Origin: Longispora albida DSM 44784
Lineage (GTDB): Bacteria; Actinomycetota; Actinomycetes; Mycobacteriales; Micromonosporaceae
DNA: 64,000 bases
Direction of reading: 5' to 3'
Assembly (NCBI RefSeq): GCF_000379825.1
Contig: NZ_KB903815.1
Location: 90,810-154,809, forward strand
The position numbers and the translations under genes are program-made. Under the pieces are notes generated by a model, which worked only from the letters and a program-made list of their open reading frames with translations, made no database searches and was not told where the DNA came from. This document shows, one piece after another, positions 38,610-42,714 of the stretch (position 1 is its first letter; each line of letters begins with the position of its first letter).

Positions 38610-40097
38610 TCAGACGAGCGACTCGGGGGCGTGCAGCCGGAGCAGCATGCGGCCCACAGCCGCTGGCACCCGCCGCCGGGTCGCAAGCGACACGAGCACC
38701 ATTACTGCAAATGCCATCGGTACCGTCCACGCCGCAGGCTGGGTAACCAGGACCGCTAGCCAGCCGTGGCCCGGATCGCCGAACACCGTGAAGACCACGG
38801 CACCCGCAGCGGCCCCGCCCCCGGCGATCATGCCGGCCGCAGCGCCTGCGTCGGTGAGGCCGCGCCACCAGATCCCGAGCAGCAGCAGCGGGCAGAAGGT
38901 CGCCGCAGCCACCGCGAAGGCCAGGCCGACCACTCTGGACACGTCCACCCCGTCGACGCTGAGCGCGAGCACGGCGGGCACCAGGCCAGCGATCACCGCC
39001 GACCAGCGGAAGTCCCGCACAGAGCCCCGGCCGAGCACGTCGGTCGACAGCACGCCAGCCACCGAGGTCAGGAGACCCGATGACGTGGAGAGGAAGGCAG
39101 CGAAGGCCCCTGCGGCCACCAGCGCACCGAGGGCCTGCCCGAGCGGCCCGTCCCCGAGCACCACCCCCGGCAGCACCAGCACCACGGCATCCGGTGTGGC
39201 CAGCCCCGGCGTGTAGATCCTGCCGAGCAGGCCATAGATGGTGGGGAAGAGATAGAACACCCCCACCAACCCCAAGACCCCCAATGTCGTACGCCGGGCG
39301 GCGCGCCCATCCGGATTCGTGTAGAACCGGACGAGCACGTGTGGCAGGCCCATCGTGCCGAGGAAAGTCGCGATGAGCAGCGAGTACGTGCCGAAGAGCC
39401 CCTGAGCTGGCGTGCCGCCCCCGAGCAGCCACTCCGTGCCGACCGGTGACTCCGGAGTCACCAGCGCGCCGGAGCCGCTCGACCGCCAGCGCAGCAGCAG
39501 GAACACGACGGGTACGGCGAGCGCCGTGAGCTTCAGCCAGTACTGGAAGGCCTGCACGAACGTGATCGACCGCATCCCGCCCAGCGCCACCGACCCGGTG
39601 ACCACGGCGGCGACCAGCACGACGCCGGCCCAGTAGGGCGCGCCGGTGACCGTCCGCAGGGTCAGGCCGGCTCCCTGGAGCTGCGGCAGCAGGTACAGCC
39701 AGCCGATGAACACGACGAAGGCCGTCACGAGCCGCCGCAGTTTCCGCGACCCGAGCCGCAGCTCGCAGAAGTCCGGCAACGTGAAGGCACCCGACCGGCG
39801 CAACGGCCCGGCCACGAACAACAGCAACGCCAGGTACCCGGCCGCGAACCCGATCGGGTACCAGAGCACGTCCAGCCCGTAGCTGAGCACCAGCCCGGCG
39901 ATGCCCAGGAACGATGCGGCCGACAGGTACTCGCCACCGATCGCGGCGGCGTTCCACCGCGGGCTGACCGAGCGCGAGGCGACGAGCAGGTCACTCGTCG
40001 TCCGGGCCACCCGCAGCCCGTAGAAGCCGATCACCAGGGTCACGAGCGTGACGAGCACGATCCCGGCCAGCGCCCAGCTCACCCGAGCACCCCCCAT
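38610..40097 (-). CDS. sodium:solute symporter (SSS family, ActP-like)
   Basis: 495 residues from ATG 40097. About 13 spans. SSS marks: SPRWNAAAIGGEYLSAASFL, GFYGLRVARTTSDLLVASRS, FLGTMGLPHVLVRFYTNPDG and AAFLSTSSGLLTSVAGVLST. These resemble the acetate/monocarboxylate branch (ActP/MctC). It imports a small carboxylate with Na+ or H+. It is the last gene of a minus-strand set starting with the LytS/LytTR pair, separated from the DUF485-like gene by a palindrome (40102-40143). Confidence 0.9.
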   Translation of the reverse strand: MGGARVSWALAGIVLVTLVTLVIGFYGLRVARTTSDLLVASRSVSPRWNAAAIGGEYLSAASFLGIAGLVLSYGLDVLWYPIGFAAGYLALLLFVAGPLRRSGAFTLPDFCELRLGSRKLRRLVTAFVVFIGWLYLLPQLQGAGLTLRTVTGAPYWAGVVLVAAVVTGSVALGGMRSITFVQAFQYWLKLTALAVPVVFLLLRWRSSGSGALVTPESPVGTEWLLGGGTPAQGLFGTYSLLIATFLGTMGLPHVLVRFYTNPDGRAARRTTLGVLGLVGVFYLFPTIYGLLGRIYTPGLATPDAVVLVLPGVVLGDGPLGQALGALVAAGAFAAFLSTSSGLLTSVAGVLSTDVLGRGSVRDFRWSAVIAGLVPAVLALSVDGVDVSRVVGLAFAVAAATFCPLLLLGIWWRGLTDAGAAAGMIAGGGAAAGAVVFTVFGDPGHGWLAVLVTQPAAWTVPMAFAVMVLVSLATRRRVPAAVGRMLLRLHAPESLV

Positions 40098-40152: not shown

Positions 40153-40527
40153 TCACTTCTCCACCAGTTCTGTGAAGTCGCGTTCGTTGCGCTCGCTCAT
40201 CCGCACGTACACCCAGCCGGCGGCGACCAGGAACGGATAGGGCAGCAGGCCGAGAAGCAGCCAGGGCAGGGATATCTCCCAGATCTTGACCCTGGCCAGC
40301 GCCGGAGCGGCGCTGAACAGCAGCGGCAGCGTGCCGAGCCCCAGCCCGACGATCAGCGCGAGCCGCAGGGCGAGGGCGAGCTGCGCCCGGACCAGGCCAC
40401 GGATCAGCGCGTCGCCGATCTCGGTCTGCTCGGCCAGCTCCCGCCGGGCCTGGCTGACCTTGCGCGCCCGGGCCACCTCCCCGAGCACCACGCGCGTCCG
40501 CTTCGGGCGGTTGCTCAGCGGTGCCAT
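40153..40527 (-). CDS. DUF485-like small membrane protein
   Basis: 124 residues from ATG 40527, overlapping the response-regulator stop by 13 bp. The N-terminus is basic (NRPKRTRVVLGEVARARKVS), then two spans (about 46-68 and 83-106) and an acidic tail (ERNERDFTELVEK). The topology and place before a symporter match DUF485 partners of ActP-type transporters, though the sequence is divergent. It is probably a small symporter subunit. Confidence 0.75.
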   Translation of the reverse strand: MAPLSNRPKRTRVVLGEVARARKVSQARRELAEQTEIGDALIRGLVRAQLALALRLALIVGLGLGTLPLLFSAAPALARVKIWEISLPWLLLGLLPYPFLVAAGWVYVRMSERNERDFTELVEK

Positions 40528-41249
40528 TCTTCCCTCGCCGACCGCAGCAGCAGATCCTTGAGTTCCCGGGTGTGCCTGCGGGCCACCGGCAGCGTCCGGC
40601 CGCCGACGACCACGACATAGCCCGAGTTGGTCATCCGCAGCTCACTGATCTGGTCGAGCCGGACCAGGAAAGACCGGTGGATCCTGGCGAACCCGGCCTC
40701 GGCCCACCGCTCGGCCAGCACCGCCAGCGGGATCCGCACGAGGTGCGAGCCCTCCTCCGTGTGCAGCCGGGCATAGTCGCCCTGCGCCTCGACCCAGTGC
40801 ACAGTGGACCTGGGCAGCAGCTTGATCGTGCCGGCCAGCTCGACGGGGATGACGGCCGGCTCGGGTACCGGTGCCTTCGTGCCGCGTGCCGACAGGATCC
40901 GCCGCAGCGACTCGGCCAGCCGCTCCGGCTCGACCGGCTTGCGGATGTAGTCGAGAACGCCCAGGTCGAAGGCGTCGGCTGCCCGGTCGTCGTACGCGGT
41001 CACGAACACCACGGCCGGCGGCGCCGCGAACCGGTGCAGTACCCGGGCCAGCTCCATCCCGTCCAGCCCCGGCATCCGGATGTCCAGGAAGGCCGCGTCC
41101 ACGTCCGCCGAGCGCAGTACCCGCAGCGCCTCGGTCGCGTCGCTGGCCGTCGCCACGCTGCCGACCCGGGGATCGGCGCGCAGCAGGTACGCCAGCTCGT
41201 CCAGAGCCGGCAGCTCGTCGTCGACGGCGAGAATCCGCAGCGGCCTCAT
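40515..41249 (-). CDS. LytTR-family response regulator
   Basis: 244 residues from ATG 41249. A receiver domain (about 4-120) has the acidic pocket DDE, the phospho-acceptor in DAAFLDIRMPGLDG, and VTAYDD and RKPVE. A LytTR DNA-binding domain (about 140-240) has VHWVEAQGDYARLHTEEGSH, FARIHRSFLVRLDQI and LPVARRHTRELKDLL. It pairs with the sensor kinase immediately upstream, and by genomic association likely controls the symporter genes. Its start follows two mini-ORFs created by a 17-bp tandem repeat. Confidence 0.93.
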   Translation of the reverse strand: MRPLRILAVDDELPALDELAYLLRADPRVGSVATASDATEALRVLRSADVDAAFLDIRMPGLDGMELARVLHRFAAPPAVVFVTAYDDRAADAFDLGVLDYIRKPVEPERLAESLRRILSARGTKAPVPEPAVIPVELAGTIKLLPRSTVHWVEAQGDYARLHTEEGSHLVRIPLAVLAERWAEAGFARIHRSFLVRLDQISELRMTNSGYVVVVGGRTLPVARRHTRELKDLLLRSAREEWHR

Positions 41250-41296
41250 GACCGCGCCGCTCTCATGACCGCGCCGCTCTCATGACCGCACCGCCG
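41246..41296 (-). repeat. 17-bp tandem repeat with two six-codon mini-ORFs at the kinase/regulator junction
   Basis: TCATGACCGCGCCGCTC occurs at 41246-41262 and 41263-41279, and a diverged third unit at 41280-41296 includes the kinase stop. On the minus strand each unit carries an ATGA overlap. From the kinase stop, ATG at 41283 opens MRAARS then TGA, ATG at 41266 opens MRAARS then TGA, and ATG at 41249 opens the response regulator. Every step is a stop-start overlap, so coupling could be relayed. Confidence 0.85.
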
Positions 41297-42428
41297 GGTG
41301 GAACTTGGGAATCCGGAGCATGATCCGCGTACCCGCGCCGACGCCAGTCTCGACCACCAAGCCGTACTCCTCCCCGAACACCGCCCGCAAACGTTCGTCC
41401 ACATTCGACAATCCGACGTGCTGCCCGTCGCCCGACTCTTCCTCGGTCAGCAGCTCCGGATCCATGCCCACCCCGTCGTCGTCCACGCTCAGGTGACACT
41501 CGGCTCCGGCATCCCGCGCCACGATCGTCACCGTTCCGACGCCGGGCTTGCGGGACAGCCCGTGCCGGACGGCGTTCTCCACGAGCGGCTGCAAGCACAG
41601 GAACGGCAGCGACACCGGCAGTACCTCCGGCGCGATCTGCAGCCGCACCTGCAACCGCTCACCGAACCGCGCCCTCTCGATCGTCAGATATCGATCAATG
41701 GATCGCAACTCCTCCGCCAGCGTCGTGTACTCACCATGCGACCGCAGGCTGTACCGCGTGAACTCCGCGAACTCCAGGATCAGCTCCCTGGCCCGCTGCG
41801 GGTCCGTCCGCACGAACGAGGCGATGGCCGACAGCGCGTTGTAGATGAAGTGCGGGCTGATCTGGGCCCGGAGCGCGCGCAGCTCGGCGCGCGCCAGCCT
41901 GTCCCGCGACGAGTCCAGCTCGGCGAGCGCCAGCTGCGTCGCCGCCCACCGCCCCGTCTCGATCGCCGCCTGTACCAGGCCAGGGGCCACCGGCTCGTCG
42001 GCCAGCGCGACCAGCGTCCCGACCCGCCCGGCGTCCGTCTCCAGCGGGACGAGCACCGCGCCACGGATCAGGCAGTCGAGCCGGTCGCACGGCAGGTCCC
42101 CGGCGGCCAGCACGGCCTTCGTCGCCCGGAGTACCTGCTCGGCGTGGTGCTCACCCGTGCCGTCCCACGCGAGTACCTGCTCGGTGTCCAGGAGCGCCAG
42201 GCCGCTCGCGCCGATCAGCCGCCTCAGGTGCCGGACGGACTTCGCCGCCGCAGCCTCGGTGAGCCCGGCCCGCAGCGGCTCGGCGGCCAGGCCAGCCGTC
42301 CGCAGTACCTCGTAGGTCGCCCGCTGGTGCTGGGTCGCTATGCCGCGGCGCTGGCGCAGTCTCAGCAGCGCGACCAGCCCGGCCGCGAAGGCTGCGGCCA
42401 GGGCCGCCACCGCCCAGACAGCGTTCAT
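41280..42428 (-). CDS. LytS-type sensor histidine kinase
   Basis: 382 residues from ATG 42428 (MNAVWAVAALAAAFAAGLVA); TTG 42437 is an alternative closer to the GGAGG at its upstream side. One N-terminal span, a GAF-like sensor region (about 80-190: CDRLDCLIRGAVLVPLETDA), then the His_kinase family block LRALRAQISPHFIYNALSAI (phospho-acceptor His) and an ATPase domain with PLVENAVRHGLSRKPG (N box) and DDDGVGMD (G1). It signals to the LytTR regulator downstream. With one span only, the ligand is probably sensed in the membrane or cytosol. Confidence 0.92.
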   Translation of the reverse strand: MNAVWAVAALAAAFAAGLVALLRLRQRRGIATQHQRATYEVLRTAGLAAEPLRAGLTEAAAAKSVRHLRRLIGASGLALLDTEQVLAWDGTGEHHAEQVLRATKAVLAAGDLPCDRLDCLIRGAVLVPLETDAGRVGTLVALADEPVAPGLVQAAIETGRWAATQLALAELDSSRDRLARAELRALRAQISPHFIYNALSAIASFVRTDPQRARELILEFAEFTRYSLRSHGEYTTLAEELRSIDRYLTIERARFGERLQVRLQIAPEVLPVSLPFLCLQPLVENAVRHGLSRKPGVGTVTIVARDAGAECHLSVDDDGVGMDPELLTEEESGDGQHVGLSNVDERLRAVFGEEYGLVVETGVGAGTRIMLRIPKFHPAVRS

Positions 42429-42714
42429 CGCTGCCAATATCCTCCGTCACACCAGGTAAAAAAAGCCTTGCGCGATGCCGGTGTCCCATGCAGACTTGCC
42501 TGCGACGCGCTCACGGCGAGCGCGAGTCACGCTCCGGTGTGAGCGGACGAGTCCCGGGAAGGGGGCGGAACCAATGTCAACGACTGTCATGCGGTTTGCG
42601 CTGTCCAGCCAGACCGTCCCCAGCCTCACCGTCTGAGCGCACCTACTTTTCTCTAGTACTGCCAAGGCAGTACTGCGCCCCGGTGAGGCACTCCCAAGGA
42701 GAACCTCACACATC
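42429..42714. other. 286-bp intergenic region upstream of the RIO kinase gene
   Basis: Divergent promoter region between the sensor kinase and the RIO-type kinase. It contains the exact 20-bp palindrome AGTACTGCCAAGGCAGTACT (42655-42674) 40 bp before the RIO start, a possible operator, and CCAAGGAGAACC as ribosome site near 42697. No further gene is supported. Confidence 0.6.
42655..42674. promoter_or_regulatory. 20-bp perfect palindrome upstream of the RIO kinase gene
   Basis: AGTACTGCC-AA-GGCAGTACT is a perfect dyad with a 2-bp centre, the size of a dimeric repressor site. It is preceded by the pyrimidine-rich TACTTTTCTCT. No regulator gene is adjacent. Confidence 0.5.

Follow-up and report, generated by a model that had tools for sequence, protein, structure and literature searches.

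The locus lies on the minus strand of the window (the whole 64,000-nucleotide stretch of Longispora albida DSM 44784 DNA that was analysed) and comprises the genes of a LytS-type sensor kinase and a LytTR response regulator and, between them, two mini-ORFs made by a tandem pair of 17-bp units (Table 1). The TTG start of the kinase is taken from the ORF listing and is putative. Its ORF (42437..41280) has the C-terminus HPAVRS, followed by TGA, and the 3' end reads ...GCG GTG CGG TCA TGA. Both mini-ORFs read ATG AGA GCG GCG CGG TCA TGA, so that the path from the kinase stop through mini-ORF 1 and mini-ORF 2 to the regulator ATG at 41249 consists of three ATGA overlaps of −4 nt. This is exactly the relay that the original prediction had described, and the junction shows the stop–start overlap (ATGA or TGATG) of termination–reinitiation gene pairs.

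Table 1. Features of the kinase–regulator locus (positions in the window)
Feature	Position	Strand	Description
Kinase gene, LytS-type sensor	41280..42437	minus	His_kinase PF06580 and HATPase_c PF02518
17-bp unit 1	41267..41283	minus	5' ATG overlaps the kinase stop
17-bp unit 2	41250..41266	minus	sequence identical to unit 1
Mini-ORF 1, MRAARS	41263..41283	minus	ATG at 41283; 4-nt overlap with the kinase stop
Mini-ORF 2, MRAARS	41246..41266	minus	ATG at 41266; 4-nt overlaps with the mini-ORF 1 stop and the regulator start
LytTR response regulator	40515..41249	minus	Response_reg PF00072 and LytTR PF04397
124-aa small protein gene	40153..40527	minus	3' of the regulator gene
Sodium:solute symporter gene	38610..40097	minus	SSF, PF00474

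A scan of the regulator frame from the kinase stop to 41249 yields no in-frame ATG, GTG or TTG, and the next in-frame start past 41249 is codon 32 of the regulator, within the receiver domain. The regulator start is therefore well fixed, and, as far as the reading frame can tell, the ATG at 41249 is very probably the sole usable one, which bears out the assignment of the start to the ATGA overlap. A simple scan covering only sigma-70-like sites gave no promoter in the repeat. Further downstream, the 124-aa protein, which may be DUF485-like, has no Pfam match at 1e-3; its ORF, if begun at the first ATG (40527), would overlap the end of the regulator by 13 nt (40515–40527). The symporter gene is likely part of the same operon as the kinase and the regulator.

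Tandem Repeats Finder reports the repeat at 41245–41294 with a period of 17, 2.9 copies, 96% matches and a score of 93, the second highest among 64 rows. For periods of 12–100, the window contains no other exact full-copy tandem pair. No exact tandem pair with a period of at least 16 was present in any of five locally shuffled windows, and the 17-mer has two occurrences in the genome, both at this kinase–regulator junction.

A comparison of the units with their flanks and with the sister species points to their origin. The genus is represented by one further genome (G001, locus L004), in which the same kinase tail leads into one ATGA overlap with no 17-bp unit at the junction. The 13 bases of the kinase tail that precede the first ATG match the unit, in register, at 10 of 13 positions (shuffle p ~0.005), and the corresponding 13 bases of units 1 and 2 match at all 13. 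At the peptide level, each mini-ORF looks like a regulator-like head (MR) fused to a kinase tail in which V is changed to A (A[V to A]RS and stop), as a tandem duplication across the overlap would give. Given this resemblance to the kinase tail, a local duplication is the most likely source of the units.

The length of such a duplication decides its consequence by simple arithmetic. When the duplicated stretch spans the ATGA, a length of 2 mod 3 preserves a relay, one of 0 mod 3 preserves a direct overlap with a longer regulator, and one of 1 mod 3 breaks the coupling. The earlier claim that any number of 17-bp units preserves coupling follows from the first case. Two units also place the regulator in the kinase frame, 30 nt past the TGA, and this spacer contains no further in-frame stop, so readthrough of the TGA could in principle produce a fused kinase–regulator. 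The frames of the two genes differ, however, in the sister species and in nearly all relatives, which means that a fusion is not a conserved function, and we regard readthrough as extremely improbable.

We have surveyed the same junction in orthologous loci. From 230 loci, 193 distinct junctions were obtained after L020 and L066, which have no kinase in the locus, were dropped and 35 identical junctions were merged; L001, L002 and L113–L117, repeats or side hits of the study locus, had been excluded before counting. A junction was called direct when the kinase stop shares a 4-nt overlap with a start codon in the regulator frame, and relay when mini-ORFs are chained by −4 overlaps, the start codons being called by pattern only. 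On this basis 145 junctions are direct, 44 are relays (40 with one mini-ORF and 4 with two) and 4 are neither, i.e., a coupled path is present in 189 of 193. The four exceptions are L022, with a possible 8-nt overlap, and L038, L043 and L211, in which the kinase stop is TAA or TAG and coupling is wholly lost with the genes still present. In L043 the TAA is followed by degenerate repeats of 17–18 bp, each ending in TAA and lacking start overlaps, which amounts to a non-relaying array.

Before 100 more junctions were fetched in listed order, it had been predicted that relays would make up at least 80% of the non-direct ones. The 73 previously unseen junctions divide into 54 direct, 18 relay and 1 neither, so that relays account for 18 of the 19 non-direct cases, in agreement with the prediction. 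Since the relay mini-ORFs split into 29 sequence clusters, it is the predicted coupling, and not the mini-ORF peptide, that is the conserved property. A functional mini-ORF peptide is disfavoured for the same reason, the sequences not being conserved.

Tandem relays of other sequence occupy the same junction in two relatives, namely L106, with a pair of 47-bp units (MSMRVPAADRGPGVRA and MSMRLPAAGRRPGVRA), and L196, with a 59-bp unit present twice. L156 has a single 17-bp unit whose kinase-tail copy agrees at 10 of 13 positions, and most of the remaining relays are without a clear kinase-tail copy. The mini-ORF of L015, 43 codons long (MIRVLAVDG...), starts like the N-terminus of the regulator itself and contains an internal repeat, KSFG/KSFD.

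According to the original prediction, the array could be a slippage-prone switch whose copy number tunes the kinase:regulator ratio. Its two units are identical, relatives have relays of one or two mini-ORFs, different in sequence, at this junction, and variable tandem repeats upstream of Mtb-fpg1 are reported to correlate with the level of its mRNA (PMC2734929). We nevertheless consider such a switch quite unlikely, as the sister species lacks the unit. Moreover, hypermutable tracts do not typically consist of just two 17-bp copies.

How often a relay would appear by chance has been estimated by shuffling the spacers with both end contexts kept and the length varied by 0–2, in which case 55% are still coupled. 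A single locus thus proves little, because about half of random spacers with RTGA at both ends also couple. Across the survey, 44 of the 47 non-direct junctions with a spacer are coupled, compared to the 55% of the shuffled ones (binomial p ~1e-8 if independent), and allowing for related species by counting mini-ORF clusters gives 29 of 32 against 55% (p ~2e-5). When one base is deleted at every spacer position in turn, 10% remain coupled, and with two-base deletions 84% do.

On a FastTree tree of the 193 rows, which is rough and may inflate the count, the direct and relay states interchange at least 30 times, compared to 35–43 times for shuffled labels (60 shuffles). Because the number of changes is close to that of shuffled labels, the architecture seems to turn over fast while the coupling persists. 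Same-operon control junctions are coupled less often than the kinase–regulator junction, as judged from the minority of loci that could be assessed: the regulator to 124-aa gene junction has 4 direct overlaps and no relay among 24 assessed (96 of 120 loci not assessable), and the 124-aa gene to symporter junction has 9 direct overlaps and 4 relays among 37 (83 of 120 not assessable).

An alternative is de novo initiation of the regulator at the ATG at 41249, aided by the weak GAGAG Shine–Dalgarno sequence that each unit carries, with the mini-ORFs as by-products. The Shine–Dalgarno duplex before this ATG has a calculated energy of −6.0 kcal/mol, and relays generally pair more strongly before the regulator than direct overlaps do (median of −7.95 vs −6.2 kcal/mol, p = 0.0008), both of which would suit such initiation. 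On the other hand, the pairing at 41249 is weaker than the −8.6 of the sister species' direct junction. In addition, de novo initiation needs neither a particular frame nor RTGA at both ends, yet nearly all spaced non-direct junctions of the survey are relays. We therefore judge it unlikely. The stronger pairing of relays may instead offset ribosome losses, or it may reflect partly independent initiation.

A relay is also found in the family in the form of a dispersed element. Several Micromonospora kinase–regulator junctions carry a mini-ORF beginning VSERSERTG, and the element as a whole consists of a mini-ORF of the pattern [MV]SERSERT...A and stop, with RTGA at both ends (e.g., L246–L258 and L261–L300). 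Its core, GCGAGCGNAGCGAGCGAAC, occurs in 347 copies in 129 of 354 family genomes, belonging to 15 of 44 genera, and is directly preceded by RTGA in 338 of the 347. The frame opened by the RTG of the element ends on RTGA in all 13 distinct copies from five genomes and in all 49 copies from 40 further loci. The +1 frame is a trivial control, as it always begins on the TGA itself; the +2 frame, which is the informative one, ends on RTGA in 12 of 49. In 43 of the 49 copies, the element frame is an ORF no longer than 60 codons; at least 60 open codons precede the element in 41 of the 49 and follow it in 37. Chains of the element occur as well: in G132 (C1:4019734-4020064) five copies are spaced exactly 77 bp apart, and several genomes have pairs at 80 bp and a few at 69. 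The dispersed element offers another way of arriving at the relay architecture. It gives 0 matches in the study genome, either exact or with up to 1 mismatch, and it is for this reason not the source of the 17-bp unit.

The closest precedent is provided by the mycobacterial MIRUs, including those of senX3-regX3. MIRUs are described as short repeats with start codons as their insertion sites and with an ORF inside that is coupled to the next gene by a −4 nt overlap (PMC12548453, citing Supply 1997), and 77- and 53-bp units lie between senX3 and regX3 (PMC4213456). The likeness is threefold: repeat units are placed between kinase and response regulator genes, the overlap anatomy of the array is the same as that of the short MIRU ORF with its −4 nt step to the next gene, and the MIRU unit lengths (77 and 53 bp) leave a remainder of 2 on division by 3, as do the 17, 47 and 59 bp found here. 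Together with the abundance of the dispersed element in other family members, this description might suggest that the units represent a mobile element of the MIRU type that was inserted into the ATGA. MIRUs are dispersed and seemingly mobile, whereas the 17-bp unit is confined to this one locus of the genome and similar to the adjacent kinase tail, and the pair here is LytS/LytTR, a different kinase/regulator family. With the unit at only one locus and the dispersed element without a match in this genome, a mobile-element origin has been rejected as very improbable. The array would function in the manner of a MIRU relay; being undispersed, it is not itself a MIRU.

Coupling at −4 nt overlaps has been demonstrated experimentally for several native gene pairs (PMC6728339 and PMC12548453); the ATGA pairs share their overlap with the present junction, where a series of three has taken the place of one. 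Ribosomes can also be delivered to a coupled gene by a short upstream ORF (PMC12548453). Here the role of the mini-ORFs would likewise be delivery and not the peptide, with the difference that the mini-ORFs here are fed by an upstream gene and come in tandem copies. In the open-access literature we found no kinase–regulator mini-ORF relay, no tandem duplication at ATGA overlaps and no MIRU-like repeats in Micromonospora or other actinobacteria. The new result is the comparative survey, according to which the predicted coupling is kept across the family while the relay sequences differ, and the array is a local, probably recent example of this recurrent architecture.

The explanation that we favour, and consider probable, is that a 17-bp duplication spanning the ATGA created a relay by termination–reinitiation that has been tolerated since coupling survives. 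In this scenario, the 17-bp segment across the ancestral kinase-stop/regulator-start ATGA would have been duplicated in tandem twice, each copy, being 2 mod 3 in length, adding one stop–start step. Ribosomes leaving the kinase would traverse the two six-codon mini-ORFs by termination–reinitiation and then start the regulator, and the hexapeptides would be without a function of their own. The explanation builds on the anatomy of the junction, the state of the sister species, the likeness of the units to the kinase tail and the conservation of −4 overlaps, whether direct or relayed, throughout the family. Passage of ribosomes along the relay, and a selection for coupling that filters the insertions arising at the junction, are inferred from it. 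Coupling is described as efficient at −4 to +3 nt and as declining with larger spacing, with exceptions (extract of PMC12548453), and a plain spacer of 30 nt would accordingly be expected to weaken it, whereas the relay would keep −4 nt at each step.

A broader proposal, which we put forward tentatively and think rather doubtful, is that LytS/LytTR coupling in Micromonosporaceae is under such selection that insertions survive mainly as a relay or in frame, that relays recur both by duplication and through a MIRU-like element, and that the number of steps sets the kinase:regulator ratio. Natural versions with 0, 1 and 2 steps at one gene pair, together with the chain of 77-bp units elsewhere in the family, would make it measurable whether reinitiating ribosomes traverse successive short ORFs and what the cost per step is. 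The relay would explain how packed operons tolerate insertions, and it would widen the view of MIRU function.
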